A program made the translations under genes and the position numbers. The notes beneath the pieces were generated by a model. The model was not told where the DNA came from, did not search any database, and worked only from the letters and a program-made list of their open reading frames with translations. This document shows positions 2,575-22,414 of a stretch of DNA of 46,154 bases, one piece after another; within the stretch, counting starts at the first letter, position 1, and each line of letters opens with the position of its first letter. Source of the DNA: a virus; the IMG/VR virus record IMGVR_UViG_3300035703_004055, positions 1-46,154 of that record. One strand, given 5' to 3'.

Positions 2575-2638
2575 CATTTTAATAGCCATTGCATTTGTTT
2601 GGGTGATGCATATTAAGGACGAAAAAAAACCGGCCTAG
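2567..2638 (+). CDS. Possible 23-residue membrane peptide
   Basis: An ATG overlapping the end of the preceding gene (ATGGGTAG) opens a 23-codon frame: a hydrophobic stretch SILIAIAFVWVM followed by a charged end (HIKDEKKPA). The stop-start overlap and the clean single helix make it a plausible tiny gene. It is too short to be sure from sequence alone. Confidence 0.3.
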   Translation: MGSILIAIAFVWVMHIKDEKKPA

Positions 2639-2648
2639 AGAAGCCGGT
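2622..2648 (-). terminator. Intrinsic terminator oriented leftward
   Basis: ACCGGC (2629-2634) pairs with GCCGGT (2643-2648) around an 8-base loop. The run of eight A at 2622-2629 becomes a U-tract only for leftward transcripts. On the rightward strand no T-tract follows the hairpin. No leftward gene is visible between here and 2160, so it may stop antisense transcription toward the early genes. Confidence 0.45.
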
Positions 2649-2673
2649 CCTATAATCAAACCCATAAGGCTTA

Positions 2674-2721
2674 ACTATAAACACAGTACAAAACTACATT
2701 CTTTTTTTTAACTATAAACAC
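2674..2721 (+). repeat. Duplicated leader motif ACTATAAACAC, copies 2 and 3
   Basis: Two exact copies lie at 2674-2684 and 2711-2721, 37 bases apart, in the untranslated leader before the gene at 2728. The leader otherwise holds only the reverse-oriented hairpin and a T-rich run at 2702-2709. Confidence 0.55.
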
Positions 2722-2727
2722 TTAGCT

Positions 2728-3822
2728 ATGCCGCTACTTAAAGCAAACGAGCCACTACCACAAAGACCCGTGGTAATCGCCATCTACGGAGAGCCGGGCT
2801 CTTGTAAAACAACACTGGGCAACACCTCTAATCAGGTTGTAGTATTAGACTTTGACCGGGGCGTTAGTCGCTCTCTATTCAGACAAGATACCGTTATCGT
2901 CAACAGTTGGGATGATGTAATTGCCGAAGAGCAAGCCGGTACATTCAAGAACTACAAAACAGTAGTGATTGACACTGCCAAAGCTGCACTAGATGACTTT
3001 TTAATGAGTTATGTAGTAAAGCGAGATTTCAAGCTAAAAACCAATAAGCTGAAAGCCTATGGTGAAATTGGTGACGAGTTTAAATTGTTCTTGAACAATC
3101 GCCGTACCGAAGGACTAGATGTGGTGATCATTGCCCACGCCAAAAAAGACGAGGATACCAAGAAAAGTATTCCCGATGTAACAGGCCAGTCCTATCAATT
3201 GATTTTGAGAGTAGCTGATCAGGTAGGCTATGTAAGCTTTCAAAACAATCACCGCAACATTCAATGGTCACCAACTGATTTAACCATTGGTAAAAATACT
3301 GCCAACCTTCCTATGATGCAAGTTCCGGACAAGACAGATCCGGCATTAAAACACTTTATGGCAAATGTGATTGAGCAGGTTAAAGGTTCTATTGTAGCCA
3401 TTAACGAAGCACAAGAAGAAGCCATGAAGAAATTTGAAAGCATTCAGCAAAGCATTAATGATGCTAGCTCTTTTGAAGATCTCGGTTTAATCATTACGGT
3501 ATTAAATGAGCAACCTACTTATTTGAAATTGCAGGGTATGCAGTTGATGCAAAATAAAGGAGTTGAATTCATTACTGCTGTTACCACTGCAGATGGTTTA
3601 AACGAAGCATTATCATTCTACCTCACTAACAATTGCCGCACCAATGAGGCACAATCAGCCATGAAGCAAGTGCAAGAAAAGTTGGGGTTGAAGTTTGATA
3701 AATCAACCGCCAAATTCTTTGCCCCTACGCCGGAGCCACCGGTTGCAGATGAGGCTACAGGTGCAGGGCAACCATTACCCAATAAAGAACTGGCAGCGCA
3801 ACCGGCCATGACTTTTGAATAA
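2728..3822 (+). CDS. RecA-fold ATPase, Sak4-like recombinase
   Basis: Residues 14-230 form an AAA_24/RecA-like core. The P-loop is GEPGSCKT (21-28), with Cys where the consensus Gly precedes Lys. The Walker B strand is YKTVVIDT (near 77-83), and a later strand LDVVIIAHAKKD fits the sensor position. Such ATPases (Sak4 group) act in phage single-strand annealing and strand exchange, normally beside an SSB and an exonuclease. Here a RecB-type nuclease and a DnaQ-type exonuclease follow. Residues 230-364 are an extra helical region with a Pro/Ala-rich end, longer than the compact family members, possibly for partner binding. Start: ATG 7 bases after the ACTATAAACAC motif. Confidence 0.8.
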   Translation: MPLLKANEPLPQRPVVIAIYGEPGSCKTTLGNTSNQVVVLDFDRGVSRSLFRQDTVIVNSWDDVIAEEQAGTFKNYKTVVIDTAKAALDDFLMSYVVKRDFKLKTNKLKAYGEIGDEFKLFLNNRRTEGLDVVIIAHAKKDEDTKKSIPDVTGQSYQLILRVADQVGYVSFQNNHRNIQWSPTDLTIGKNTANLPMMQVPDKTDPALKHFMANVIEQVKGSIVAINEAQEEAMKKFESIQQSINDASSFEDLGLIITVLNEQPTYLKLQGMQLMQNKGVEFITAVTTADGLNEALSFYLTNNCRTNEAQSAMKQVQEKLGLKFDKSTAKFFAPTPEPPVADEATGAGQPLPNKELAAQPAMTFE

Positions 3823-3841
3823 ACCCTTTTCCTCAATTTAA

Positions 3842-3852
3842 ACTATAAACAC
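3842..3852 (+). promoter_or_regulatory. Leader motif ACTATAAACAC, copy 4
   Basis: The copy ends directly against the ATG of the next gene (3853). The motif position relative to the start codon varies from 0 to 6 bases, so it is more likely an A-rich initiation context or a processing site than a Shine-Dalgarno element. Confidence 0.5.
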
Positions 3853-4716
3853 ATGGTTACAGTAATTCGTCCCGATGCGATTAAAGCAGGGGACATCCAA
3901 CAAGTAAAGGCAGATCTTACCAAGTTTGATATTGCCAAACAAGTAGTGGATGAGGCTATTGAAGCACTCAAACCACACCTGCAGATTAAAGATGAAACAC
4001 AAATGCAGGAAGCACTAGAATTGGCGAAGGATGCCAATAAAGTGTCGAAAGCAATTGAAGACAAGCGTAAAGAACTGGGTGGTCCCTTTGCAGATGCAAA
4101 GAAGGAAATTGACAACTATGCAAAGTCAATGACTACCGGTTTAGACAACCAAGTTACTGCTGTAAAGAATGCCATCCTTGTCTTTCAAAAGGCAGAGGAA
4201 AAACGTAAGCTTCAAGAGAAAGCAGCACTACGTCAAAAGTATTTGATCAATGAATTGGGTTTTCAATACAACGGCACTGTTGACCGCTACGAGTTAGCAG
4301 GTGTTGGCAGTATGAGCAGCAATGAAATTACCAATTACGATGACGCTTCTTTCAATCATGTATGCAACGGTTTTTTAGAAAGCATTCGCCGCAACAACGA
4401 ACAGAAAGCAGCAGAAGCATTAGCCAACAAAGATTTGGTAGATGCTTTTGGAGATGCTGAAGATGTAGCGGAAATAGCTACAGCTACTCAAGCTGTAAGC
4501 ATTGCACCTCCTCCACCTTCTCCGGTATTTAATACCACTACCGTTAAAGCAAAAGGAACAACGCTCCGTTGGACGTTTGAATTAACCGATACTACACAAA
4601 TACCAAGAGAATATTTAGTGGTAGATGAAGCTGCCATCAGAAAGGCAGTGAATGCCGGTGTTCGAACTATACCAGGTGTAAAGATTTTTCAGACCGAATC
4701 TTTAGCGCTTCGTTAA
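3853..4716 (+). CDS. Coiled-coil recombination-module protein, DUF1351-like
   Basis: Residues 40-140 are a long charged coiled coil (EALELAKDANKVSKAIEDKR and onward). A Pro-rich linker PPPPSP lies near 217. The last 55 residues carry the pattern RWTFELTDTTQIPREYLVVD ... AIRKAVNAGVRTIPGVKIF, which is typical of DUF1351-like phage proteins found beside recombinases and nucleases. No catalytic motif is visible. The likely role is structural or accessory in the recombination complex with the upstream ATPase and downstream nuclease; this is inferred from position. A strong terminator follows its stop codon. Confidence 0.7.
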   Translation: MVTVIRPDAIKAGDIQQVKADLTKFDIAKQVVDEAIEALKPHLQIKDETQMQEALELAKDANKVSKAIEDKRKELGGPFADAKKEIDNYAKSMTTGLDNQVTAVKNAILVFQKAEEKRKLQEKAALRQKYLINELGFQYNGTVDRYELAGVGSMSSNEITNYDDASFNHVCNGFLESIRRNNEQKAAEALANKDLVDAFGDAEDVAEIATATQAVSIAPPPPSPVFNTTTVKAKGTTLRWTFELTDTTQIPREYLVVDEAAIRKAVNAGVRTIPGVKIFQTESLALR

Positions 4717-4723
4717 TCATCTT

Positions 4724-4757
4724 CCCGACATCGGGAAATCGATGTCGGGTTTATTTT
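4724..4757 (+). terminator. Intrinsic terminator within the early operon
   Basis: CCCGACATCG (4724-4733) pairs perfectly with CGATGTCGGG (4740-4749) around GGAAAT, then a T-rich run TTTATTTTTT follows (4750-4759). The next gene starts 8 bases after the hairpin with no consensus promoter between. Either readthrough/antitermination feeds the nuclease genes, or expression is deliberately stepped down here. Confidence 0.8.
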
Positions 4758-4764
4758 TTATAAT

Positions 4765-5448
4765 ATGAAAAGAATATCTGTTACTACCCTAGAGAAGTTT
4801 CGCCGATACATGGCAGAGACTTCACCATTCGATACAGAAGCATCGTTGATTGAATCACTTAAAGGCATGTTTAAGGGTAACGATAAAACCTATTTGGGCT
4901 CTGCTTACCACAAAATTGTAGAGGGCAAATTTGAAATGAGCGGACCGTTTATTCTTGCGGACGACTTTGTCTTTACTGCGGAACAATATGCACCTGCTTT
5001 ATTGTATCGCAATCTGCATCCAACCATGCAACATGAAGTGCCGGTGAATAAAGTGTACGAAACAATGTATGGTCCTATACAAGTAACCGGACGTTTGGAT
5101 GGCATAGAAGGTGCACAAGGTAGAGATGTAAAATTAAAGTTTGCATCTCCGGATATGCAAGAGTATCATGACAGTTGCCAATGGAGATTTTATTTGGATA
5201 TGTTGATGGCAGATGTGTTTTGGTACGATGTGTTTGAAGTAAAGCAATTCAAACAACTACCTGTTCAAAAGCCATACATCATAAGAGAGGTGGCAATCGT
5301 GCCGCATGAGCCTTACCAGTGCTTAAGGTACCAGGGCATGGGAGATGATGTCCTGCAGGTGCTCAATCAATTTCTTTCCTATATCGAAGATCGTCAATTC
5401 CATCACTTACTAAAACCAGCAATGCAACATGAAAATATTATTTTTTGA
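4765..5448 (+). CDS. PD-(D/E)XK nuclease, RecB/Cas4-like phage exonuclease
   Basis: The 227-residue protein carries the RecB-family signature in order: GSAYHKIVE (G45, H49, E53), GRLDGIEG (D112), DVKLK (D121 and K123) and a QWRFY helix (about 138-142). These correspond to motifs I, II, III and the QxxxY motif. Family members degrade double-stranded DNA ends to give the single strands used by an annealing recombinase, which fits the upstream RecA-fold ATPase. Motif III uses DVK rather than the commoner ExK. The 3' end overlaps the next gene by 20 bases. Confidence 0.82.
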   Translation: MKRISVTTLEKFRRYMAETSPFDTEASLIESLKGMFKGNDKTYLGSAYHKIVEGKFEMSGPFILADDFVFTAEQYAPALLYRNLHPTMQHEVPVNKVYETMYGPIQVTGRLDGIEGAQGRDVKLKFASPDMQEYHDSCQWRFYLDMLMADVFWYDVFEVKQFKQLPVQKPYIIREVAIVPHEPYQCLRYQGMGDDVLQVLNQFLSYIEDRQFHHLLKPAMQHENIIF

Positions 5449-6028
5449 TACCGAAACAACCGGTAAACCGATAGACTACAAAGCATCTTACGAAGATGTA
5501 AACAACTGGCCAAGGGTTACACAAATCGCATGGCTATTATGTGATGAAACAGGAGAAACATTAACTGCTTTTCAATCATTGGTGAAGCCTAATGGTTGGG
5601 AAATACCAAAGGAAGAGTTTTTCATTAAGAACAATATGAGTACTGAAAGATGTGAAGAAGAAGGCAGATCAATAGAAAGTATTCTGGAGTTTTTGTATGA
5701 CTATAAACAACAGGCTGATTTCCTAGTAGCCCACAACTTAAGCTTTGATCATAGAGTATTATGGGCTGAATTTATTCGTGCCGGCATGGAGCCACGCAAG
5801 GGTATGAATAAGATTTGTACCATGATGAAATCAACCAATGTTTGCAAGCTACCTGCTCCCAATGGTCGTGGTTATAAATGGCCAAAGCTTGAAGAGCTGT
5901 ACCGCTTTTTATTCAACAAAGAAATGGAAGGTGCTCACGATGCCATGGCAGACATCACTGCTACCAAGGATTGCTTCTTTGAATTGGTAAAAAGAAATTT
6001 TATCACCCTTGAAATTCCTACTGTCTAA
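5429..6028 (+). CDS. DnaQ-like DEDDh 3'-5' exonuclease
   Basis: All three exonuclease motifs are present: ExoI FFDTETTG (D7, E9), ExoII HNLSFDHRVL (D107) and ExoIII HDAMADITAT (H170, D175). The H-x4-D spacing places it in the DEDDh class with the DNA polymerase III epsilon subunit. It has no polymerase-linked domain and is a stand-alone 199-residue enzyme, likely for proofreading, end trimming or degradation of host DNA. It overlaps the RecB-like nuclease gene by 20 bases and the next ATG by one base, so the nucleases are translationally linked. Confidence 0.9.
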   Translation: MKILFFDTETTGKPIDYKASYEDVNNWPRVTQIAWLLCDETGETLTAFQSLVKPNGWEIPKEEFFIKNNMSTERCEEEGRSIESILEFLYDYKQQADFLVAHNLSFDHRVLWAEFIRAGMEPRKGMNKICTMMKSTNVCKLPAPNGRGYKWPKLEELYRFLFNKEMEGAHDAMADITATKDCFFELVKRNFITLEIPTV

Positions 6029-6282
6029 TGCAAGAACAAATTAAAGATGCTTTTAAAGCAATAACCAAAGGCACAGGCGATCGCTTACGGATTCAGCCCG
6101 AATTAAAAGTAACGAGAAGTGGAGACACACTTTACATCAGTGAGCTAAGAAAAACAACGGTGAGCATGATGGCAGTAGTTGAAGTGGTAAGCTCCGGCAA
6201 AAGCGATAAGGCTCCTATGCCTTTGGGTGCATTGGATGCACACACCTTACAATGTATTCTTAACCGTTTAAAATCGATGTAA
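6028..6282 (+). CDS. Small phage protein of unknown function
   Basis: The 84-residue protein looks like a small alpha/beta fold: a helical N-terminus (EQIKDAFKAITKG), two strands (LRIQPELKVTRSGDTLYIS), then a polar loop and a C-terminal helix. I do not recognise it. The start overlaps the exonuclease stop (TAATG) and its own stop overlaps the next ATG. It therefore sits in a tightly packed nucleic-acid processing operon and is likely a partner protein. Confidence 0.7.
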   Translation: MQEQIKDAFKAITKGTGDRLRIQPELKVTRSGDTLYISELRKTTVSMMAVVEVVSSGKSDKAPMPLGALDAHTLQCILNRLKSM

Positions 6283-6614
6283 TGAGCGAAAAAACAACAT
6301 TCGAAGCTTGGTGTATTGTTGAATTATTTGGACACCAACGCATTGCCGGAAAATGTTCCGAACAAAACATTGCTGGTGTAAACATGCTAAGGGTTGATGT
6401 TCCTGAAACAGCTAAACAACCGGCATTTACAAAGCTATTTGGTGGAGCTGCCATTTATGCCATAAACCCGGTGGATGAAGTTACGGCAACACTCACTGCA
6501 AGTGAATTGAATGCCGGACCAATTACCAGTTGGCAAGGTGAAACATTCAGCAATAAATATTTAGCAGAAAAAGCAAAAGGTGAATTGCCTTATTCTGACG
6601 ATTTGCCGTACTAA
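6282..6614 (+). CDS. Conserved phage-type protein with an SSB-like acidic tip
   Basis: The 110-residue protein has the pattern EAWCIVELFGHQRIAGK ... NMLRVDVPET ... AIYAINPVDE, a recognisable but functionally unassigned family in phages and bacteria. It ends in PYSDDLPY. This tail resembles the C-terminal DDxPF peptide by which single-stranded DNA-binding proteins recruit partners. The N-terminal part does not show an obvious OB fold, so calling it an SSB would go too far. It overlaps the preceding gene by one base and ends 7 bases before the methylase start. Confidence 0.6.
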   Translation: MSEKTTFEAWCIVELFGHQRIAGKCSEQNIAGVNMLRVDVPETAKQPAFTKLFGGAAIYAINPVDEVTATLTASELNAGPITSWQGETFSNKYLAEKAKGELPYSDDLPY

Positions 6615-6621
6615 AAAAAAA

Positions 6622-7374
6622 GTGGAGCAACATATTAGAACCCAAGCACAAGCAAAAAAGGATTTTGAAAAAGCATTAAGCAGCTTATCCTACACCAATA
6701 ACAATTGGACAGTATTTGAAGACTTCTTGGACTATACGCTACTGATGCTGAAATGGCAGGATAGAAAAGAAGAATACTTCGATGATTTGAGAAAGCGATA
6801 TCCGAAGGAAGAACAACACAAGCTCTTTGCAGAAGCATTTTACGCACTGGCTGACATTGCAGATAATAATGGCACAGGTTTCTATGATCCGTTTGGTGAT
6901 TACTTCATGGAACACTTTGGTAACAAGTTTAAAGGTCAATTCTTTACTCCGGATTCTGTTACCGAATTCATGGCAGCTATTATAATCGCTGATGATACAC
7001 CGGAAAAGAAAACGGTTTGCGATCCAACCTGCGGAAGTGGACGAACGCTTTTATCGGCGGCTAAGCACAATCGAAATCTAATCTTCTATGGTGCAGATAT
7101 CGATATCAACTGTTGTAAGATGACAGTAATAAATATGATGCTGAATACAATGGTTGGAGAAGTAGCATGGATGGACACATTAAGTATGAAGCATTGGAAA
7201 AGCTGGCACATAAACAAAGTGTACAATGGTGCAGGTTACTTGCCATACTATCAAGTAACCGGACCGGGTGAAACACATTTTATTGAGCGTCTGCAGAGCA
7301 GCTTACAAAGACAAAGTGAAGACGAGAGTAGTAATATAAAAGTTGGCAAAAGACAACAGATTATGCTCTTTTAA
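6622..7374 (+). CDS. N-6 adenine DNA methylase-like protein, HsdM type, probably catalytically altered
   Basis: From the GTG start the protein has 250 residues. The N-terminal half is helical. GQFFTP (about 105-110) and DPTCGSGRTLL (motif I, about 134-144) match the SAM-binding region of HsdM-like N6-adenine methylases, and YGADID follows as motif II. The catalytic motif IV (NPPY/NPPF), expected after VAWMDTLSM, is not visible; the region reads KSWHINKVYNGAGYLPYY. It may bind SAM or DNA without methylating, or use a variant motif. GTG at 6622 is preferred over ATG at 6580 because it starts 7 bases after the upstream stop and removes an unrelated Cys-rich leader. Confidence 0.7.
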   Translation: MEQHIRTQAQAKKDFEKALSSLSYTNNNWTVFEDFLDYTLLMLKWQDRKEEYFDDLRKRYPKEEQHKLFAEAFYALADIADNNGTGFYDPFGDYFMEHFGNKFKGQFFTPDSVTEFMAAIIIADDTPEKKTVCDPTCGSGRTLLSAAKHNRNLIFYGADIDINCCKMTVINMMLNTMVGEVAWMDTLSMKHWKSWHINKVYNGAGYLPYYQVTGPGETHFIERLQSSLQRQSEDESSNIKVGKRQQIMLF

Positions 7375-8147: not shown

Positions 8148-9935
8148 ATGCAAAAACAAACTGACTTTCAAAATCTGCCACTAAAAGATATTGTGGCCAG
8201 TCCAACCAACCCACGCAAAACATTTGATACCAGCAAAACCATTGAGTTAGCAGAAAGCATCAAAGAAAAAGGTGTATTGCAACCCATTTTGGTTCGGGAA
8301 AAAGGCAAGAAGTATGAAATTGTTTGCGGAGAGCGACGATTCAGAGCCTCGCAAATGGTACAAACACAAGTTGCCGACAGAACAACCATTCCTGCCATCA
8401 TCAGAGCATTGACAGATCAGGAAGTAAGAGAGATGCAGCTGATTGAAAACTTTCAGCGTGAAGATGTTCACCCAATGGAAGAAGCTGTTGCCATTAAATA
8501 CGCCATCGAGACCGGGCAATACAGTGTTGAGGATCTTATGCATAAAGTAGGAAAGAGCTCCCAATACATTAAACAACGCATGAAATTAAATGCGCTGACA
8601 ACACAATGGCAACAACTGTTTTTCAATAATCGAATTACCATTTCATTGGCTATTCAAATTGCCTTGTTTGCTCCAGATGTGCAATTGCAAATACTGGCTG
8701 ATAGGGTAGATGAAGATGAATTGGAAAGCAAATCTGGCCGAATGATTGAGATTAATGAATATCAGCTTGTTGCTTACCGTGGTAAATTGAGTTTAGCCAA
8801 TTTCGATATCAATGATGCTACGCTTTTGCCTAAAGCCGGAGCTTGTAGTAATTGCTTGTACAATACAGCTTGTGCCGGTTTATTTCCGGATGATGAATTA
8901 AATGCAAGGTGTACGAACATTACCTGCTTTCAGGAAAAAACCAATTTGTTTTTTGAAAACGAACTGCAGGTGGCTAAAGAGATTCCGGGTATCATTTTCG
9001 TTTCTAATTACTTCGGCAGATTTGAAGATAAAAAGCTGGTGCAATCATTACAGGCTGATGGGTTTGATCTACTTGATAGAAATGCTTTCAACAAACTAGA
9101 AAAGCCGGAGCAACCCGATTGGGAAGAATGGAAGGAGGATAATGATTATAACGATATGACCGACGATGAAAAGGTTGAATGCAAAGAAGGTTTTGATGAA
9201 GCCGTTGCAGAATGGGAGAATGATTGTTATAGCTACCAGCGTTCAATTGAATCTGGCAAGTATAAAAAAGCTTTTATCATCGAAGGTACTGACAGAGGTA
9301 AGTATTGTTACATTCAATTGACCGGTAAAAAATCAGCCAACACCGAAACACCTAAAAAATTAGACACCACTGCTGATACGGTAACGGTTGAAGATATCGA
9401 TCAAGAAATTGAACGCATTCGCAGCAAGGAAAAAAGGTCAAAAGAAATTGACGAAAACAAGATTTGGGACCAGCTAAAAAATCACTACTCTCCGTTCAAT
9501 AATGTTCCGCTATTAAGTGGCGACTTAAAGCAGGTAGAAAGAAGAGCCATTTGCCAAGCGATGTACAATAAACTCACGTACACTGGTCAAAGAGATTTCG
9601 TAAAGCTGTTTAATATTAAACAGAGTAGAAAAAACTATGCAGAAGTTATAGTGATTCCGGAACTCGATGAAAAGACGTTTCTGTCTATGCTGCGGTTTTA
9701 TATGCTAGATGTTTTGCCGCCTACCATGTTATATACCGGTTACAATGCTGATGCTGCTGTCTGCATAGAAATAGCTCAACAATACTTCCCAACGGTATTG
9801 AGTGATATCGAAAATACCATTTCAGAGAAATCGGAGAAAAGGGAAAAGAAAGTAGCGCAGCGTATTGCCGAGTTACAAGCACAGAAAAAAGGATTGAAAA
9901 AATCAGAACCTAAAAAACCAGCCAAAGCCAAATAA
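8148..9935 (+). CDS. ParB/Spo0J-type nuclease-CTPase-fold protein
   Basis: Residues 8-110 form a ParB N-terminal domain with both nucleotide-binding boxes: GERRFRAS (61-68) and ENFQRED (100-106). A central HTH region follows (about 125-155, DLMHKVGKSSQYIKQRMKLN). Five Cys (C233, C236, C242, C255, C260) could bind a metal. The C-terminal 300 residues are charged and unassigned. At 595 residues it is about twice a chromosomal ParB, and no ParA is present, so plasmid-like partition is unlikely. In phages such proteins sit in replication modules and may act as DNA-loading clamps or regulators; this role is inferred. Confidence 0.8.
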   Translation: MQKQTDFQNLPLKDIVASPTNPRKTFDTSKTIELAESIKEKGVLQPILVREKGKKYEIVCGERRFRASQMVQTQVADRTTIPAIIRALTDQEVREMQLIENFQREDVHPMEEAVAIKYAIETGQYSVEDLMHKVGKSSQYIKQRMKLNALTTQWQQLFFNNRITISLAIQIALFAPDVQLQILADRVDEDELESKSGRMIEINEYQLVAYRGKLSLANFDINDATLLPKAGACSNCLYNTACAGLFPDDELNARCTNITCFQEKTNLFFENELQVAKEIPGIIFVSNYFGRFEDKKLVQSLQADGFDLLDRNAFNKLEKPEQPDWEEWKEDNDYNDMTDDEKVECKEGFDEAVAEWENDCYSYQRSIESGKYKKAFIIEGTDRGKYCYIQLTGKKSANTETPKKLDTTADTVTVEDIDQEIERIRSKEKRSKEIDENKIWDQLKNHYSPFNNVPLLSGDLKQVERRAICQAMYNKLTYTGQRDFVKLFNIKQSRKNYAEVIVIPELDEKTFLSMLRFYMLDVLPPTMLYTGYNADAAVCIEIAQQYFPTVLSDIENTISEKSEKREKKVAQRIAELQAQKKGLKKSEPKKPAKAK

Positions 9936-11475: not shown

Positions 11476-12354
11476 ATGAGCAAAAAAGATGAAAAGCTCA
11501 GTAATTTCTTACCTATCAATCGAAAGTTATTCAGCCACTGGTTGTGGACAGAAAAACGTTCGTACTCCAATGCGGAAGCTTTCCTCTGGCTTATCAAAGA
11601 GGCAAGATTTGAAGCTGCGGTGGCCACTGAGCTGATAGGTGGCAAAATGGTGCATTGGAATAGAGGCGAATTACCGGCGAGTTTAAGATACCTGGCAGAT
11701 TCTTGGGGATGGGAGAAAAACAGAGTAGACAGGTTTTTAAAAATTCTTGAAAAAGAGAAAATGATAAGCCGCCGGTTAGATCAAGGCCAAACCATCATCA
11801 GATTGATTAATTACGATGCTCACAACGGGAAAAAGCAAGATTTGGGACAGCAAACGGGACAGGTTAAAGAGCCACAGGTAAGCGTTTCGGCAGAATCATG
11901 GGACAGCAAACGGGACAGTGACGGGACAGCGACGGGACAGCGACGAGACAAAACTAATATAGTTAATAAAGAAGAAGAAGGAAAAGAGTCTCGTGGCACA
12001 GCCACGCACCCAGCCCCTACGGAAGAAGAACAAAAGTTGTTTTCCGGCTTCCAGTTATGGATTACGCAAAACGCACCCAGGGTAGCACAAATGAAAGAAC
12101 CTTTCACCATTAGGGAGTTTATAAAACTCCGAGCAACAACAGACAAAGAAAAGGTTAAAGACCTGCTTATGCAGATGCATAATTGGGAACCATTATTGAG
12201 AAAGAACAGATCAGCTTATCTGACCATTAAAAAATGGGTAAAGCTTGATGACAACAGAAACAATAACAACCCCACTAACAACAGAACAGATGATGAGTAC
12301 AAACGAAACAGACAATTGGAAGAAGAAAAGGCAAAAGCCAAGTATTCCGCTTGA
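11476..12354 (+). CDS. Replication initiator / helicase loader, lambda O-like
   Basis: Residues 10-110 look like a winged-helix DNA-binding domain (SNAEAFLWLIKEARFE; SWGWEKNRVDRFLKILEKEK; ISRRLDQGQTIIRLINY). This is the layout of phage replisome organisers. A polar linker rich in Gln, Asp and Gly (about 115-180) is encoded by the iteron array. The C-terminal part (about 185-270) is helical with FTIREFIKLRATTDKEK and YLTIKKWV, a pattern of primosome/DnaT-like and DnaB-binding regions. The DnaB helicase gene overlaps its end, as in lambda O-P type modules. Origin DNA inside the initiator gene is the known arrangement for such proteins. Confidence 0.78.
   Translation: MSKKDEKLSNFLPINRKLFSHWLWTEKRSYSNAEAFLWLIKEARFEAAVATELIGGKMVHWNRGELPASLRYLADSWGWEKNRVDRFLKILEKEKMISRRLDQGQTIIRLINYDAHNGKKQDLGQQTGQVKEPQVSVSAESWDSKRDSDGTATGQRRDKTNIVNKEEEGKESRGTATHPAPTEEEQKLFSGFQLWITQNAPRVAQMKEPFTIREFIKLRATTDKEKVKDLLMQMHNWEPLLRKNRSAYLTIKKWVKLDDNRNNNNPTNNRTDDEYKRNRQLEEEKAKAKYSA
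11844..11951 (+). repeat. Iteron array inside the initiator gene, likely replication origin
   Basis: GGGACAG occurs at 11844, 11856, 11900, 11912, 11923 and 11934, with a degenerate copy at 11945. Spacings are 11-12 bp, or 44 bp between the two clusters. The 19-mer GGGACAGCAAACGGGACAG occurs twice (11844-11862, 11900-11918) but is translated in different frames, so it is conserved as DNA, not protein. An A+T-rich, purine-rich stretch (11950-11990) follows and could be the unwinding region. Iterons within an initiator gene are the lambda-type origin layout. Confidence 0.7.
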
Positions 12355-13786
12355 CACATTGGTCTATGGCAAAGTGCCACCACAGGCGAAAGAATTAGAA
12401 GATGCTGTACTAGGAACATCAATGGTAAACGTTGCAGCTGCTGAAATTATGATTGATTTACTAAAACCCCAATCGTTTTACGTAGATGCCAATCAGCTGA
12501 TTTTTAAAGCCATCAAATACCTGCATGATCAAAATGTTGTGCCGGATATATTGGTCGTAGTACAACGGTTAAAAGCTACTGAAGAATTAGAGCTGGTTGG
12601 TGGTCCCTATGCTATCACAAAATTAACCAATCAAACAACCGCCAATGTTGAAACCTATTGCCAAATCATTCAGCAAAAGTTTATACAGCGTGAAATGATT
12701 CGCTTTGGCGGAGAGATTATTAATGAGGCTTACGAAGAAAGTACAGATGCTTTTGTACTGCTCGATCACGCAGAAGCCAATTTTACGGCCATTACGCAGG
12801 GCAATATGCGTGGGGATGGGTATAAGACCTCCGCAGCTATTGCAATGGAAAGAGTAAGCCGTATTGAAACGCTACGGGCAAATAAAAACCATCTTACCGG
12901 AGTACCAACTGGTTTTAGGCCTTTAGATATCACTACAAATGGTTGGCAGCCTACAGATTTAATCATTATTGCTGCTCGTCCATCGGTGGGTAAAACTGCT
13001 TTTGCTTTAAACCTAGCCCGTAATGCAATGATTTCTTCCATCAAACCAACACCAGTCGGCTTCTTTTCCTTAGAAATGAGTAGTGGTCAATTGATTGACC
13101 GGGTAATCAGCTGTGAAGGCAAAGTAGAGCTGGAGCAAATCACCTCCGGCAAGTTTATTAACGATGAAGCTTATCATCAATTCAGGAAGAGTGCAGAAGT
13201 GGTTTCCAATTATCCATTCTATGTTGATGATACACCGGCTTTAAATATTTCTGAGTTTAAAAGCAGAGCTCGGCAAATGGTAAGAAAGCATAAGGTTGGG
13301 TTAATCATTGTCGATTACCTGCAGCTGATGAGTGGGAAAACCGATGATGTAAGAGTTAGGGAACAAGAAATTAGCAGCATTTCAAGAAATCTAAAGTCAT
13401 TGGCAAAGGAATTGAAGGTTCCCATCATTGCATTGAGCCAATTAAGTAGGGCACTCGAAAAAGAAAAACGAGATCCTCAATTGAGTGACTTACGGGAGTC
13501 AGGAAGCATTGAACAAGATGCAGATATTGTAATGTTTATCACCAGACCCGATTATCAAAAGACTAGCGGAGAAATAGACCCAATGTTAAAGCATTGTATT
13601 GATCTCCATATTAAGAAACATAGGTCCGGAAAGCTAGATAAAGTGCCATTGTATGCAGTGTTATCTATTCAAAAGTGTTTTGACCTAGAACAGTTTAAAG
13701 ATTACAAAGCCATGCAGTCTTTACCTCAAGGTAACTGGGCACCAATGCCAACAAGATTAGATGATGATGAAGATTTACCATTCTAA
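12290..13786 (+). CDS. dnaB: Replicative DNA helicase, DnaB family
   Basis: It has an N-terminal DnaB domain with the start of the conserved pattern VPPQAKELEDAVLGT, and a RecA-like C-terminal motor. Walker A is ARPSVGKT, Walker B is LIIVDYLQLM, followed by ALSQLSRALE and the SDLRESGSIEQDADIV signature. It unwinds DNA at the replication fork as a hexamer. The frame is open from an ATG at 12245, but the tandem ATGs at 12290/12293 are preferred because they shorten the overlap with the initiator and still retain all conserved domain. The protein ends in DDDEDLPF, which is like the SSB C-terminal tip and unusual for DnaB. Confidence 0.93.
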   Translation: MMSTNETDNWKKKRQKPSIPLDTLVYGKVPPQAKELEDAVLGTSMVNVAAAEIMIDLLKPQSFYVDANQLIFKAIKYLHDQNVVPDILVVVQRLKATEELELVGGPYAITKLTNQTTANVETYCQIIQQKFIQREMIRFGGEIINEAYEESTDAFVLLDHAEANFTAITQGNMRGDGYKTSAAIAMERVSRIETLRANKNHLTGVPTGFRPLDITTNGWQPTDLIIIAARPSVGKTAFALNLARNAMISSIKPTPVGFFSLEMSSGQLIDRVISCEGKVELEQITSGKFINDEAYHQFRKSAEVVSNYPFYVDDTPALNISEFKSRARQMVRKHKVGLIIVDYLQLMSGKTDDVRVREQEISSISRNLKSLAKELKVPIIALSQLSRALEKEKRDPQLSDLRESGSIEQDADIVMFITRPDYQKTSGEIDPMLKHCIDLHIKKHRSGKLDKVPLYAVLSIQKCFDLEQFKDYKAMQSLPQGNWAPMPTRLDDDEDLPF

Positions 13787-17080: not shown

Positions 17081-17194
17081 ATGCAATTACTTTATGCAGA
17101 TTCAGGTTTTTTATACTACGCCATCGGCGCCTGCATCTTATTTGGTATCATGGCCTATAATGCAAGAAATAACGGCAAGCAGATTAAGCCATGA
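17081..17194 (+). CDS. Small membrane peptide, 37 residues
   Basis: The frame begins 9 bases after the PolX stop and encodes a short soluble start (QLLYADSG), one hydrophobic helix (FLYYAIGACILFGIMAY) and a basic end (NARNNGKQIKP). A longer frame in another phase (17094-17360) overlaps the next promoter and gene and has a composition like a shadow. This 37-codon frame is preferred but not proven. Confidence 0.45.
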   Translation: MQLLYADSGFLYYAIGACILFGIMAYNARNNGKQIKP

Positions 17195-17247: not shown

Positions 17248-17276
17248 TTTACACGTTTGCCCCACTTTTATTTTTG
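17248..17276 (+). promoter_or_regulatory. Promoter for the ParB/cupin/PAPS-reductase cassette
   Basis: TATTTTTG at 17269-17276 is an exact -7 box of Bacteroidota type. TTTA at 17248-17251 lies 17 bp upstream and matches three of four -33 bases. The preceding sequence CGTTTACACGTTTG has a direct repeat of CGTTT. The next gene starts 21 bases after the -7 box. The gap 17195-17296 contains nothing else. Confidence 0.5.
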
Positions 17277-17296
17277 ATGGTACTAGACTTTCTTTT

Positions 17297-17911
17297 ATGC
17301 CTGTACCAAAATCAATCCCTCTTTCATCGATTTCACCCAATGATAAAAACCCGAGGTTGATTGGTGATAAAGAATTTGAAAGTCTTAAAGCTTCCATCAA
17401 AAGAGATCCTGAAATACTATTTGTCAATCCTATTGTGCTGCACTCTAAAAACAATTACACCATCCTTGCCGGTGAAAAACGTTTTTATGCCCTCAAAGCT
17501 TTGGATTACAAAGAAATTCCACTGAATTGGTTGTTGTTCGGCGATGCACTCACTGAAACCCAGCGTCAAAAATTCATTTTGTTAGACAACCTTCATTCCG
17601 GCATTTGGGATATAACTAAACTCAAAGATGATTGGGCTGTACAAATTAAAGAATGGGATATAGAAATACCGGAATTTGAATTGACCGAACAACCTAACGA
17701 ATTACTAGATGCTACTGGCGACATTCCTGAAGAGCCAAAATCAATTCCATCAGCTACTCATAACGATTATAGTGTTTTTGAATTAGTGATGCTGCATGAG
17801 AACAAACTTAAACTATTACAGCTGCTAAATACCATCAAGACAAAACACCAATTTGAAAAACTAGAAGCTGCATTGATGTATTTGGTTGAGCTAAACCCTA
17901 TAAACGCTTAA
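17297..17911 (+). CDS. ParB N-terminal-domain protein (first cassette gene)
   Basis: Residues 5-95 are a ParB/Srx-type domain with IPLSSISPNDKNPRLI at the start and AGEKRFYALKAL as the equivalent of the GERRxxA box. The usual ENxQRxx box is replaced by LLDNLHSGIWD. The C-terminal half is charged with PEEPKSIPSA as a linker and a helical end. There is no ParA and no obvious HTH. It begins a four-gene cassette with its own promoter; the next gene starts 3 bases on. ParB-fold proteins next to PAPS-reductase-like proteins are a known pairing with unknown chemistry. Confidence 0.75.
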   Translation: MPVPKSIPLSSISPNDKNPRLIGDKEFESLKASIKRDPEILFVNPIVLHSKNNYTILAGEKRFYALKALDYKEIPLNWLLFGDALTETQRQKFILLDNLHSGIWDITKLKDDWAVQIKEWDIEIPEFELTEQPNELLDATGDIPEEPKSIPSATHNDYSVFELVMLHENKLKLLQLLNTIKTKHQFEKLEAALMYLVELNPINA

Positions 17912-17914
17912 TAT

Positions 17915-18661
17915 ATGAAACACACTTTTTCAGCTTTTGAATGGCAAAACGGTCTATTGTATGATTACAGTAATTATCAATTCCCTACTAAGCTTCATGC
18001 TTTGGTTGGATCCAATATTTTCTTATTTGAAGAAGGAAGCTCTTACTTCATTTTTCAATATGAAAGCTTTTCATTTATCAATGGCCACTTTCCTTTACCT
18101 AAAGATTATTTTGCTGTTACTACTGCTGCAGACAGGTTTATTCAAGGTGAAAAAAACACCAAAACTTTAATTATCGAACGTATAGGATATGAAGCCATGT
18201 TTAATATTGGCGGACCAATTGAAGCCCAAGGAAGATTAAAATACATTGATGGCTGTACAGATTCTTTATTGATTCCTCCCGTTAAGTTTGGCGACCCTTG
18301 CTTGAATCATTTGCATTTCCCTACCCACATTGACCAGACCATGCATACTCATCCATCTATCAGAGTTGGTTTAGTAGTAAAAGGTAATGGCGACTGTGTA
18401 ACGCCTTTCGGCAATATTCCGCTATTCCCTGGGCAGATATTTATCATTCATCCTGAAACCGGGCAAAAGTCATTTGGAAAGGATGGCGAACTCTACCTAC
18501 ATGGTTCACATTGCTTTAGAACTTTGGAACAAACGATGGATGTAATCGCTTACCACCCCGATAGTGACTTTGGTCCAAAAGATGAAGAGCATCCCATGAT
18601 TAACCGAACGATTGTTGATGGCGTTTCGGCTAAGCATATAAAAGAAATTCAAACGGCATAG
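17915..18661 (+). CDS. Cupin-like protein (second cassette gene)
   Basis: The 248-residue protein has a C-terminal beta-barrel pattern: HFPTHIDQTMHTHPSIRVGL gives a His-rich metal-site motif, then VVKGNGDCVTP and LFPGQIFIIHPETGQKSF. A later His pair (HGSHC) may complete the metal site. The N-terminal 120 residues are beta-rich and unassigned. Cupins include dioxygenases, isomerases and metabolite-binding regulators; the substrate cannot be told. It is packed between the ParB-fold and PAPS-reductase-like genes with gaps of 3 and 1 bases, which argues for one pathway or complex. Confidence 0.65.
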   Translation: MKHTFSAFEWQNGLLYDYSNYQFPTKLHALVGSNIFLFEEGSSYFIFQYESFSFINGHFPLPKDYFAVTTAADRFIQGEKNTKTLIIERIGYEAMFNIGGPIEAQGRLKYIDGCTDSLLIPPVKFGDPCLNHLHFPTHIDQTMHTHPSIRVGLVVKGNGDCVTPFGNIPLFPGQIFIIHPETGQKSFGKDGELYLHGSHCFRTLEQTMDVIAYHPDSDFGPKDEEHPMINRTIVDGVSAKHIKEIQTA

Positions 18662-18662
18662 T

Positions 18663-19835
18663 ATGGCTATGAAAATCAGAAAAAAGGGCTATCTCAATAA
18701 CAATGTTTACGAGGAAGCCCTTTCTCGTATAAAGTACTGTTTCCTTAATTATGATAAAATTGTAGTCTCTTTCTCCGGTGGCAAAGACAGTACAGCTGTA
18801 CTGAATTTGACCATTGAAGTGGCAAGAGAACTTGGTCGCTTACCAGTACATGCCATTTTTGTAGATGAAGAAGCTATTCATCCTACCACTATCGAATATG
18901 TAGAAAGAGTAAAGCAAAGCCCGGATGTTATTTTGGATTGGTATTGCTTACCCGTCAAACACCGCAATGCTTGTAGTAATGAACAACCTTATTGGTATTG
19001 TTGGCACCCGGAAGAATCTGATCTATGGGTGAGAGAACTTCCCCCAGCTGCAATAACCTATCACTCATCTTTTGTTTTTGGTCAATCTTTTCAGGACTGG
19101 ATGCCAACCATGTACGGTCCGGAATATGGAAAAGTGTGTTACCTCACCGGTATTCGTACTCAGGAAAGCCTTCGCCGATTCAGGATTATTGCCACCAAAA
19201 AAAACGATGCTTTCCTAACCACATCTGCAGAACACAAAAACGCTTACCGGGCTTTCCCTATTTATGACTGGAGCTCGGAAGATGTTTGGAAACTCGTCCA
19301 AATCAAAAATTACGATTACAACAAAACTTACGACATCTTCAACCAAACCCAATTGCACGGAAAACTTTTACACCAAAGAGTATGTCCGCCATTTGGTGAG
19401 GAACCATTACGGGGTCTTTGGGTTTATGCAGAATGCTTTCCTGAATTATGGCATAAAATGTTACATCGTGTAAAAGGAGTTGCAACTGCATGGCGCTATG
19501 CAAACACCGAGCTTTTTAGTAACTGGCACAAACCTGATCATAAAACATGGAAAGAATATTTTCATATTCTACTTAGTAATTACGACCCGGAATATCAAAA
19601 CCTTATTAAAGAAAACATTAACCGACTTATTCGTCAACATCAATCAAAAACAAATTCCCCAATTCCTGATGAAGATCCCAACCCTATTAGCGGAGCTTCA
19701 TGGAAATTCTTTGCCAAAATTGCTCAAAAAGGAGACTTTAAAGGAAGACAATCTCAAAACATGGTTGGTGAAGGTGTTAAACAATTGGCAAAACTTAAAA
19801 TAACACTAGAAGAAGCTAAAGCTATTTACGGCTAA
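18663..19835 (+). CDS. PAPS-reductase-family protein, IbrA-like (PP-loop)
   Basis: The PP-loop SFSGGKDSTAV (near 35-45) is the ATP-pyrophosphatase signature shared by PAPS reductases, DndC and IbrA. VHAIFVDEEA and YLTGIRTQESLRRF match the IbrA/DUF3440-type pattern, and YDWSSEDVWK is the family's second conserved segment. Two CxxC-like groups are not seen; Cys positions such as YWYCWHP and HQRVCPPFGEEP could still bind metal. IbrA works with the ParB-fold IbrB in E. coli to activate prophage-borne genes. Here the partner is the gene at 19864. The chemistry is not established. Confidence 0.85.
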   Translation: MAMKIRKKGYLNNNVYEEALSRIKYCFLNYDKIVVSFSGGKDSTAVLNLTIEVARELGRLPVHAIFVDEEAIHPTTIEYVERVKQSPDVILDWYCLPVKHRNACSNEQPYWYCWHPEESDLWVRELPPAAITYHSSFVFGQSFQDWMPTMYGPEYGKVCYLTGIRTQESLRRFRIIATKKNDAFLTTSAEHKNAYRAFPIYDWSSEDVWKLVQIKNYDYNKTYDIFNQTQLHGKLLHQRVCPPFGEEPLRGLWVYAECFPELWHKMLHRVKGVATAWRYANTELFSNWHKPDHKTWKEYFHILLSNYDPEYQNLIKENINRLIRQHQSKTNSPIPDEDPNPISGASWKFFAKIAQKGDFKGRQSQNMVGEGVKQLAKLKITLEEAKAIYG

Positions 19836-19863
19836 GTTCAAATAACATATCAAACTTTCTATT

Positions 19864-20454
19864 ATGAAAACGCAATCAAAACTTTCACAGGCCATTCCTA
19901 AAAATATCGAACAATTAATACTGGCACAGCCAATCAATAACATTCATTGGGTACACAGAGACGAACTCAACCCAAACTTGTATAACCCTAACCAAATGGC
20001 ACCGCCTGAAATGAAACTATTGATTGAATCCATTATCAATGATGGATGGCTATTCCCAATTTGTGTTTTACCAAAAGACGTACATATAGAGAACTTGACG
20101 GAAAACGAAAACCTCGATAAATACACCATCATTGATGGTTTCCATCGATATAAAACCTCCGGCAACCCACAGGTTTACAAAATCACCGAAGGATATGTCC
20201 CAATTGTTTTCCCTAAAGGAACTGATCACATTGCTACAACAGTACGAATGAACCGAGTAAAAGGAACCCATACCGTTCTAGGCATGGCTGATATCGTAGA
20301 AATGTTAATCAAAGACGGCAAGAGCATCGACTATATTATGCAACAATTTGGCATGGAATCAGAAGAAATTTACAGACTTGCCAGCCGAAAAGGTATTCCA
20401 AAAACAGAACTTATAACCGATGCCATGTGGTCAACTGCGTGGACTCCTGCCTAA
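19864..20454 (+). CDS. IbrB-like ParB-fold protein (fourth cassette gene)
   Basis: The 196-residue protein has the IbrB/ParB pattern: VHRDELNPNLYNPNQMAPPE, ESIINDGWLFPICV, IDGFHRYKTS (in place of GERRxxA), VRMNRVKGTHTVLGMADIVEML and MQQFGMESEEIYRLASRKGI, the last an HTH-like helix pair. The IbrA-like gene lies 28 bases upstream, so the canonical pair is preserved. The first ParB-fold gene of the cassette belongs to a different subgroup. The likely role is regulation or substrate recognition for the PP-loop enzyme. No terminator follows before the next promoter. Confidence 0.8.
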   Translation: MKTQSKLSQAIPKNIEQLILAQPINNIHWVHRDELNPNLYNPNQMAPPEMKLLIESIINDGWLFPICVLPKDVHIENLTENENLDKYTIIDGFHRYKTSGNPQVYKITEGYVPIVFPKGTDHIATTVRMNRVKGTHTVLGMADIVEMLIKDGKSIDYIMQQFGMESEEIYRLASRKGIPKTELITDAMWSTAWTPA

Positions 20455-20461
20455 TTATTAA

Positions 20462-20507
20462 TCATAATTTGATAAAACAATCTATTTTTGTCATAATTCG
20501 ACAAAAA
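20462..20507 (+). promoter_or_regulatory. Late promoter with flanking direct repeats, before the small terminase
   Basis: TATTTTTG at 20483-20490 is an exact -7 box, 29 bases before the start of the terminase small subunit gene. The block TTTGATAAAACAATCTATTTTTG (20468-20490) recurs upstream of the capsid gene with 21 of 23 bases identical. Two 16-base direct repeats flank the -7 box: TCATAATTTGATAAAA (20462-20477) and TCATAATTCGACAAAA (20491-20506). No -33 TTTG at standard spacing is seen, as expected for an activator-dependent promoter. Confidence 0.6.
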
Positions 20508-20518
20508 AACGACAACTT

Positions 20519-20872
20519 ATGCCGGGAGGTTTTAAGAAATTGACAGGAGAAGATGGAAAAAAATTCTCTGCCGAGTACCAGCCAAAAAACAGAAGGAAAA
20601 GTTCAAAGTTCCTGACTGACCTACTCATTAAAAGTCTTGATGGTAAAAAGGAAATCATCATGACCGGGACTGATGTAGAAACAGGACAAAAGCGAAAGTT
20701 CAAAGTATTTAATCCCACCAAGGACATCATTGTGATGGCATTACTACAAAAAGCTGCAAAAGGAGACATCAGCGCCATTCGAGAAATATTAGACAGGGTA
20801 GAAGGTAAGCCTGTTTTTACAGCTGAAGTAAACCTTCCGGGAGTGCAACATATTGGCTTCTCTGGGGAATAG
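20519..20872 (+). CDS. Terminase small subunit-like protein, DUF5681-type
   Basis: The 117-residue basic protein begins PGGFKKLTGEDGKKFSAEY and carries AKGDISAIREILDRVEGKP near the end, the typical ending helix of DUF5681-like small-terminase proteins. These bind the packaging start site and hand DNA to the large subunit. It lies directly before the large terminase gene, 69 bases away, and directly after the late promoter. No clear HTH can be picked out by eye. Confidence 0.72.
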   Translation: MPGGFKKLTGEDGKKFSAEYQPKNRRKSSKFLTDLLIKSLDGKKEIIMTGTDVETGQKRKFKVFNPTKDIIVMALLQKAAKGDISAIREILDRVEGKPVFTAEVNLPGVQHIGFSGE

Positions 20873-20941: not shown

Positions 20942-22414
20942 ATGGCGGACAGCATTGTTTACAATACCAAACTGTTTAATCCGCTCTTTTGGCATCTTCT
21001 GCCATTATTATCAGATTCCAAAATAAGGTATATCTATATCGAAGGAGGTAGTTCAGCTTCAAAGACGTATAGCATAGCTCAAGCAATTTTGGATTATACC
21101 ATGGTTAATCATATTAATACGATGGTATTTAGATCTGTGGGGGCTCACATAAAAGACTCGATTTATGAATCTTTTAAAAATGCAGCTACCGGAATGCAAT
21201 TGGAAAGATATCTGCAGTTCCTTGACTTTAGAATTAAGTACCAGTACGGCGATTGCAGATTGAGATTCCGAGGCTTAGACGATGAGGAAGGCATTAAAGG
21301 TATCGAAGGCTTTGACATAGTGTACAACAATGAGTGGAATCAGTTTTTCAAACGTCAATGGGACCAGCAACGGAAACGATTGAGAGGAAAACCCAATCAA
21401 AAGTTTATTTGTGACTGGAATCCGGTGAACTCACAGCTTTGGTTATACAAAGAATGGATTGACCTAGACACTTGGATTGATTTACCACTAGATGTGAAAG
21501 ATGCACCAACAAAATATAGCTCTTTGAACGCTGATTATGCCTTTAAAAGAATTAATAAAGCCGGCGATAGCGTTTGGATTAAGGTAACGCACCGAGATAA
21601 CTTTTGGGTAGTTGGCCATCCATCGGGTAAAGGAGGCTTTTATGATGAACACGTGTTAGCAGAGTTTGAAAGAGACAGAATCCTCAACCCCAACGATTAT
21701 AGGGTTTATGCCAATGGTGAGCGGGGTATCATGAAAAATGGTTCAGAGGTCTTCAAGCAATTTAAGGACTTGATACATGTTAGACCAGTAAAACCCATTT
21801 CAGGCGCCATTCATCTTTCCTTAGATGAAAACGTAAATCCTTATGTAACGGTTGGTGTTTGGCAAATACAGAATGCGAAGCAGTTGACCCAAGTACATGA
21901 ATTGCCATGTAAGACACCGGAAAACAATGCACCTAAAGCTGCTAAGAAAACAGCACAATGGCTCCGGTCCATCAATCATGAAGATTTGATTTTTGTTTAT
22001 GGCGACCCTTCCGCTTCCAGAAGAAGTACAGTTGACCCTAATTCGGCTTCTTTCTATGACAAGTTTATTGAAGTATTAACGATGGAAGGCTTTAAGGTGA
22101 TTAACAGAGTGGCGAAAAGTGCACCTGAAACCGGACTGGCTTATGCTTTCATCAATGATATCTATGAGCATCAATTGTATGGTTGGAGTATTGTTATTGG
22201 TGATAACTGTGTAGAATCAATTAACGACTATTCCATTGTTCAAGAAGACAAAGAAGGAAAGATGTTGAAGCCAAAAATAAAAGACAAGCTAACCGGTATC
22301 ACCTACGAACCACACGGTCATTTCAGCGATCAGAAAAAATATTTTATATGCCGCATATTGAATGCAGAGTTCACTCAATACAAGGCTAAACGAAAAAAAA
22401 TCTTTGGATATTAA
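20942..22414 (+). CDS. terL: Terminase large subunit
   Basis: The 490-residue packaging motor has an N-terminal ATPase. Walker A is EGGSSASKTYS (GGSSASKT at 35-42, with Ser40 where Gly is normal). The Walker B region is FDIVYNNEWN (124-133), with E131 the likely catalytic Glu. The C-terminal RNase H-like nuclease carries LSLDENVNPYVTVGVW (Asp for metal) and FVYGDPSASR. It cuts concatemers and drives DNA into the prohead. The small subunit and portal flank it. The gap upstream (20873-20941) is A/T-rich and contains an imperfect GTAAATAA/TTTATTTTAC hairpin. Confidence 0.93.
   Translation: MADSIVYNTKLFNPLFWHLLPLLSDSKIRYIYIEGGSSASKTYSIAQAILDYTMVNHINTMVFRSVGAHIKDSIYESFKNAATGMQLERYLQFLDFRIKYQYGDCRLRFRGLDDEEGIKGIEGFDIVYNNEWNQFFKRQWDQQRKRLRGKPNQKFICDWNPVNSQLWLYKEWIDLDTWIDLPLDVKDAPTKYSSLNADYAFKRINKAGDSVWIKVTHRDNFWVVGHPSGKGGFYDEHVLAEFERDRILNPNDYRVYANGERGIMKNGSEVFKQFKDLIHVRPVKPISGAIHLSLDENVNPYVTVGVWQIQNAKQLTQVHELPCKTPENNAPKAAKKTAQWLRSINHEDLIFVYGDPSASRRSTVDPNSASFYDKFIEVLTMEGFKVINRVAKSAPETGLAYAFINDIYEHQLYGWSIVIGDNCVESINDYSIVQEDKEGKMLKPKIKDKLTGITYEPHGHFSDQKKYFICRILNAEFTQYKAKRKKIFGY

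Follow-up and report, generated by a model that had tools for sequence, protein, structure and literature searches.

The virus record IMGVR_UViG_3300035703_004055 of the IMG/VR collection (46,154 bases, analysed in full and called the window below) carries, between its replication gene DnaB and the large terminase gene TerL, four intact plus-strand open reading frames (ORFs) in the order ParB1-cupin-IbrA-IbrB. This four-gene cassette is a real, inherited and recurrent unit. It is apparently an undescribed enlargement of the IbrA/IbrB pair, to which a two-barrel cupin (bicupin) and a second ParB-type protein have been added. For two decades IbrA and IbrB have been listed as prophage 'coactivators', virulence factors or toxin-antitoxin pairs, without a known chemistry. 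That one branch of them is locked into a conserved enzyme cassette, beside a bicupin, puts them in a new light, as probable components of biosynthetic machinery. The interpretation that we favour, at somewhat less than even odds, is that the cassette is an ATP-dependent phage system for modification of DNA or nucleobases, guided by its two ParB-type proteins.

A scan with the single IbrA-like protein found six viral relatives. The order ParB1-cupin-IbrA-IbrB is present in five of them; two of these five loci have an identical cassette sequence and one is cut at a contig edge. A single cupin sequence found no close relative among viral contigs. When an alignment was used as the query, the cupin profile matched 273 viral places and 111 places in bacterial genomes, of which 80 of each set were examined; the IbrA profile matched 177 viral places, 80 of them examined. 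After removal of duplicates, the set recurs on the same strand in about 100 non-redundant loci. Forty-four of the 100 have the arrangement of the window, 19 have an additional PP-loop gene (PP2) following the cupin, and 7 are arranged ParB1-IbrA-IbrB-cupin; contig-end fragments and larger versions of the cassette are among the remainder. Adjacent cassette genes share a strand in all 313 pairs, and the median spacing at the main junctions is -4 to -1 bases. Because many loci were picked via the cupin, the fair test of linkage is the set selected via IbrA. Both the cupin and ParB1 are present in 27 of 27 such loci with at least 2.5 kb of flank on each side, a figure that describes one IbrA branch, the profile having been built mainly from cupin-bearing members. 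This count and the strict operon spacing rule out the cupin as an unrelated neighbour. A preliminary description of the window had pointed to a set of four genes, with gaps of 1-28 bases, between replication and packaging modules; the gaps are indeed 3, 1 and 28 bases, and the set, cupin included, does recur.

The cassette is not confined to one kind of phage. Its usual place is immediately before the terminase: a gene cluster containing TerL lies about 3.3 kb downstream in 75 of the 100 loci. The TerL proteins compared make up 20 clusters at 40% identity, which means that the block moves between phages that are not related. Mirror-tree correlations are uninformative here, since those among cassette genes (0.32-0.67) differ little from those with TerL (0.35-0.53). 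A Chitinophagaceae genome holds, as a prophage, the closest whole relative (locus L088), whose IbrA is 84% and TerL 69% identical. No nucleotide-level relative of the cassette-terminase region was found among deposited phages. The cupin-bearing version was not found among 50,697 deposited phage records, none of which matched the cupin, and a literature search joining cupin, phosphoadenosine phosphosulfate (PAPS) reductase, ParB and phage found no paper.

The IbrA-like protein has the PAPS_reduct domain PF01507 (66.9 bits, cut-off 22.5) and PF11922/DUF3440 (43.9 bits, cut-off 25), and matches phrog_2302 with E 5e-90. The PP-loop SGGKDS, D68/E70, GxRxxES and many other positions are kept in 68 sequences. 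In an AlphaFold (AF2) model with a predicted local distance difference test (pLDDT) of 90.6, core residues 10-260 match FAD synthase, adenosine phosphosulfate (APS) reductase and CysD with Z 15-16; the C-terminal part (about 270-390) is helical and lies outside the matched core. An adenylating role for the protein is likely. It could be imagined that what is transferred is sulfur, and that the cassette, as a relative of DndC, SspD or BrxP systems, makes phosphorothioate-like linkages or thiolated bases. The Dnd, Ssp and BREX type 4 phosphorothioation systems rely on a PAPS-reductase-type PP-loop enzyme, DndB was placed in the ParB superfamily, the IbrA core fold is of the APS/PAPS reductase and CysD type, and IbrA matches the DndC (E 2e-13) and BrxP (E 1e-9) models. 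Cysteines 95, 104, 241 and 258 are present in most close homologues; however, no cysteine is invariant among 92 IbrA homologues, and several of the four are missing from most members whose cassette includes an amidotransferase. This disfavours cysteine-based sulfur transfer of the PAPS reductase or DndC type. IbrA also scores far below the curated cut-offs. As DndC it was rejected at 34.9 bits against 290.4 for the equivalog TIGR03183, the Fe-S/dyad cysteines being common and none invariant; as the APS/PAPS reductase CysH it was rejected at 22.6 bits against 165 for TIGR00434, again with no invariant cysteine. Nor did a cysteine desulfurase turn up among the recurrent neighbours. PADLOC gave only partial matches for the cassette, to DndC, BrxP, QueC, SspD and methyltransferase models. 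We regard sulfur chemistry as improbable.

The two ParB-fold proteins belong to different subgroups, as had been suspected. ParB1 matches phrog_620 (E 4e-20) and PF02195 (E 4e-8, above cut-off). It has a conserved C-terminal tail. Compared with ParB partition CTPases, it conserves G59 and R62 of a GxxR-type motif and has no HTH_ParB match. Its residues 5-142 match phrog_498, a DNA methyltransferase (E 2e-18), and judged by sequence ParB1 is similar to the ParB domain that phage DNA methyltransferases carry as a fusion. The IbrB-like protein matches phrog_2159 (E 8e-55) and has a probable C-terminal helix-turn-helix (HTH). In its DGFHR motif D91, G92, H94 and R95 are invariant and the F is not.

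The cupin of the window has no match above cut-off in Pfam, NCBIfam, PHROGs or PADLOC; the best in Pfam is AraC_binding, at E 0.003. An AF2 model made from an alignment of 115 sequences (pLDDT 96.9) is a bicupin, and the nearest solved folds, among the PDB families present in the fold tables, are DR1152, (S)-ureidoglycine aminohydrolase and YlbA (Z 17-19, 10-12% identity). These matches to a model give a fold and not a function. The same holds for bicupins more generally: (S)-ureidoglycine aminohydrolase, YlbA, BacB and quercetinase share the two-barrel fold (Z 16-19), but the window cupin is only about 10-12% identical and has Arg in place of the usual metal-binding Glu; function is not transferable. 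Cupin motifs 1 (HxH...E) and 2 (a His) suggest a putative three-histidine metal site made of H144, H146 and H199, which are invariant or nearly so, with an invariant Arg150 where Glu is usual. Q141, H144, H146, R150, H199, H214 and H226 are common to the main cupin family and to a second subfamily (nine sequences, one cut by a contig end) that other phages encode after IbrB. A quick tree places 61 phage cupins, that of the window among them, in one supported group (Shimodaira-Hasegawa-like approximate likelihood ratio test, 97). A few other cassette cupins fall outside it and supported branches force at least two label changes, which suggests more than one recruitment.

Relatives of the cupin are also encoded in bacterial chromosomes. 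None of the 22 genomes searched that have a solitary chromosomal cupin has a true IbrA; there were weak PP-loop matches only. An enzyme of the Asn_synthase family lies within about 4.5 kb of the cupin in 29 of about 74 chromosomal loci, usually with a zinc-ribbon membrane protein, and another PP-loop-like protein, with SGGIDS, stands beside it in 9 of about 74. The cupin thus accompanies PP-loop enzymes in two unrelated settings, and the family is linked to them in phages and chromosomes alike. In one such chromosomal cluster, at L138:2301-7804, a cupin of the same YIDGC type lies near a zinc-ribbon/Toprim-like membrane protein and either one or two enzymes of the Asn_synthase family; the cluster is also seen at L135, L129, L131, L134, L119, L121 and others, in Planctomycetota, Verrucomicrobiota, Acidobacteriota, Bacteroidota and relatives of Competibacter.

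These chromosomal cupins bring up a different substrate. The PP-loop enzyme and the cupin might act on a metabolite, a sugar or a tRNA during infection, as a small-molecule, cofactor or RNA modification, and the ParB-type proteins would then be nucleoside triphosphate (NTP)-dependent kinases or partners and not DNA binders. Besides the asparagine-synthetase-like neighbours, the cupin in Maricaulis lies beside NeuB-like and other sugar genes, and the nearest folds are those of metabolic bicupins, ureidoglycine aminohydrolase for example. Free serine kinase (SerK/SbnI) belongs to the ParB/Srx superfamily and is a weak structural match to IbrB, at E 0.4; where a DGHHR-like motif was looked for, IbrB has DGFHR. 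However, IbrB matches the structures of ParB and Noc far better (E 1e-6 to 1e-3), and the presence of two ParB-fold proteins, one of them like a methyltransferase ParB domain, in a terminase neighbourhood favours DNA. We consider this explanation unlikely, although it is the strongest competitor of the one we prefer.

Larger versions of the cassette are informative about its possible chemistry. PP2, a PP-loop protein of the PAPS_reduct type with several subfamilies, occurs in about 29 loci. A class II glutamine amidotransferase (GAT) of 180-190 amino acids (aa), with an N-terminal Cys-Gly and a GATase_6 domain, occurs in about a dozen. The two are combined as ParB1-IbrA-IbrB-PP2-GAT-cupin in L231 and two near-copies. 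Together PP2 and GAT resemble an asparagine synthetase split in two, and cassettes with this pair strengthen the biosynthetic recasting of IbrA/IbrB. In the window, which has the minimal four-gene form, there is no PP2 or amidotransferase homologue elsewhere. One lineage has the gene for a phage-type DNA methyltransferase (phrog_757; L008:7793-8506) between those for cupin and IbrA. At L203:5358-5855 and in about 30 other viral loci, a gene for a conserved 165-aa protein that fits no known family separates IbrA from IbrB, and some cassettes have an inserted PD-(D/E)XK exonuclease-like protein. A human-gut phage fragment (L242:5989-8675) shows another arrangement, PP2-ParB1-IbrA-IbrB-like genes with no cupin seen. 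Separately, positions 2618-6966 of the Alcaligenes phage vB_Af_QDWS535 (L243) encode a COOH-NH2 ligase, an amidoligase, a class II amidotransferase-domain protein and an ATP-grasp protein, another possible phage modification cluster.

The relation to the IbrA/IbrB pair was also anticipated in the preliminary description, and it stands. The window has the PAPS_reduct and DUF3440 domains and, 28 bp away, the adjacent IbrB-type protein of the ParB/Srx fold, the same combination as in about 215 deposited phage records. It differs from the plain pair in the bicupin and ParB1, and related cassettes differ further in PP2 and the amidotransferase. The pair alone is common in cultured Streptococcus, Flavobacterium and Mycobacterium phages, and IbrB has the same host spread.

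In E. coli, IbrA/IbrB are reported to activate the eib genes (Sandt et al. 2002, as cited in PMC6008420), and the cassette might likewise control phage or host transcription, with the cupin as a ligand sensor. The K-12 pair ybdNM, regulated in the chromosome through repression by CitR (PMC9068703), would be another case, ybdNM being assigned to this kind of pair on the DUF3440 and ParB annotation in that paper. The AraC_binding match of the cupin and the probable HTH of IbrB point the same way. The view of IbrA/IbrB as regulators rests on annotation and on the published eib work rather than on a mechanism. Against such a role, the strictly kept PP-loop, acidic and GxRxxES motifs and the HxH...H site of the cupin suggest catalysis, and additions like PP2 and the amidotransferase make little sense in a plain regulator. 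Regulation seems to us a rather poor prospect, a little behind action on small molecules or RNA.

Could the cassette serve in defence, superinfection exclusion or as a toxin-antitoxin system carried by the phage? A DUF3440/ParB pair of Listeria has been listed as a predicted toxin-antitoxin through guilt by association (PMC7020466), and ParB/Srx proteins are found in defence systems (PMC10853773). The PADLOC matches, however, were only the partial ones mentioned above, and the terminase-side position is kept in many lineages, unlike that of most morons. We give defence as little credence as sulfur chemistry, and the two share the last place in our ranking, below regulation, with action on small molecules or RNA second and DNA or nucleobase modification first. 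The preliminary description had named modification of DNA or nucleotides, host defence and regulation as possibilities, and the first of them fits best.

On the demonstrated ground of a conserved unit, its folds and its conserved motifs, modification of phage DNA may be pictured as follows. ParB1 and IbrB, as two NTP-binding proteins of the ParB/Srx fold, would bind and present phage DNA, the presumed substrate. The PP-loop ATPase IbrA would adenylate a carbonyl, carboxylate or similar oxygen, opening it to attack by a nucleophile. The bicupin, if it indeed binds metal, would make or tailor the attached group. In larger versions PP2 and the class II amidotransferase might add an amidation, in the manner of a split asparagine synthetase. 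This order of steps is conjectural; modification could take place shortly before packaging, and its purpose might be to shield phage DNA from host restriction.

Several arguments lead us to prefer modification: the obligate linkage of cupin and ParB1 in the loci selected via IbrA together with the unbroken strand agreement of gene pairs; the movement of the cassette as a block across the 20 TerL clusters; the recruitment of outside-clade cupins to it and the Asn_synthase-family and SGGIDS neighbours of chromosomal cupins; and the optional PP2 and amidotransferase, which fit tailoring chemistry. DNA in particular is favoured because ParB1 matches a methyltransferase ParB domain, because one lineage has acquired a DNA methyltransferase, and because of the place beside the terminase. 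There is also a precedent. In phage DNA, 5-carboxymethylcytosine is the substrate of CmoY, a phage homologue of asparagine synthetase, and the system to which CmoY belongs is often accompanied by ParBc genes (PMC12783734). This system, CmoA/CmoX/CmoY, is the nearest functional precedent for the cassette, with phage PP-loop, asparagine-synthetase-like chemistry and frequent ParBc neighbours in common; the window differs in having a cupin and an IbrA-type PP-loop protein instead of an amide ligase of the asparagine-synthetase type. CmoA and CmoX were not seen among recurrent cassette neighbours, though no search with dedicated models was made. In the Dpd 7-deazaguanine system, too, a ParB-like ATPase, DpdB, partners a DNA-modifying enzyme (PMC12839542), but no tRNA-guanine transglycosylase or DUF328 enzyme is seen here and ParB1 reaches 12 bits with the DpdB model, whose cut-off is 300.

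Some observations weigh against modification of DNA. No cassette gene is a proven DNA-modifying enzyme. Chromosomal cupins occur without IbrA, some of them amid sugar-biosynthesis genes, so the substrate of the cupin may be a small molecule. We know of no bulk base modification in the Streptococcus, Flavobacterium and Mycobacterium phages that have IbrA/IbrB alone. The site next to the terminase could be one where accessory genes tend to insert. Finally, the published work on E. coli speaks of activated genes. A fuller proposal, which we hold a shade more cautiously than modification as such, is that of a modular, widespread and new phage DNA-modification system with an IbrA/IbrB core, a metal-dependent cupin, a second ParB-type presenter and optional amidation. 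If correct, it would mean a new base or backbone decoration on phage DNA, and the chemistry of IbrA/IbrB would be explained. The concrete question that it raises is whether phage DNA carries a new modification.

That the cassette has its own promoter, as the preliminary description held, is weakly supported. A sequence TATTTTTG, which fits the Bacteroidota -7 type TAnnTTTG exactly, lies 28 bp before ParB1, the motif having been picked post hoc; a scan for an ordinary sigma-70 promoter did no better than chance. An exact -33 element at the usual spacing is absent before ParB1, and the complete -33/-7 pattern, absent before the cassette, is at chance level across the window. The plus strand has four copies of TATTTTTG (at 1101, 17269, 20483 and 26601), and all four are intergenic in a window whose intergenic share is 6.6% (p about 2e-5, for a motif chosen post hoc). 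TAnnTTTG overall is rarer than expected, 26 against 60.6 on both strands of the window. The four copies look like promoters of four transcription units, and the pair before ParB1 and after IbrB fits, with the same reservation about the motif, a unit of exactly four genes. Immediately upstream of the cassette is a 37-codon ORF (17081-17194), possibly for a small membrane protein; because of it the upstream gap is really about 100 bp.

Features of the window, with positions counted from its first base
Feature	Position	Strand	Length	Remarks
DnaB	12245-13786			
TATTTTTG, Bacteroidota -7-like element	17269-17276	+		28 bp before ParB1; probable start of the cassette transcription unit
ParB1, ParB-N-domain protein	17297-17911	+	204 aa	PF02195, phrog_620
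Cupin, YIDGC-type bicupin	17915-18661	+	248 aa	AlphaFold model
IbrA-like PP-loop ATP pyrophosphatase	18663-19835	+	390 aa	PF01507, PF11922/DUF3440, phrog_2302
IbrB-like ParB/Srx-fold protein	19864-20454	+	196 aa	phrog_2159
Second TATTTTTG	20483-20490	+		Right after the cassette, 36 bp before the next gene; probable boundary
Probable small terminase subunit	20519-20872	+		Neighbour, not a member; precedes TerL; weak phrog_24579 match, E 0.013
Large terminase subunit TerL	20942-22414	+		Neighbour, not a member; phrog_2, E 6e-26
Peptidase M15	44060-44572			
Integrase	44943-46154	-		

The gene content of the window reads as that of a temperate phage, and the plus strand carries nearly all genes from 1134 to 44938. 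Two further genes may be mentioned. Positions 6580-7374 encode a 264-aa protein with an N6_Mtase core, apparently without a target-recognition part, possibly an adenine methylase that is truncated or otherwise atypical. A third protein of the ParB family (ParB_N and HTH_ParB, 595 aa) is encoded at 8148-9935, in the replication region and separate from the cassette.

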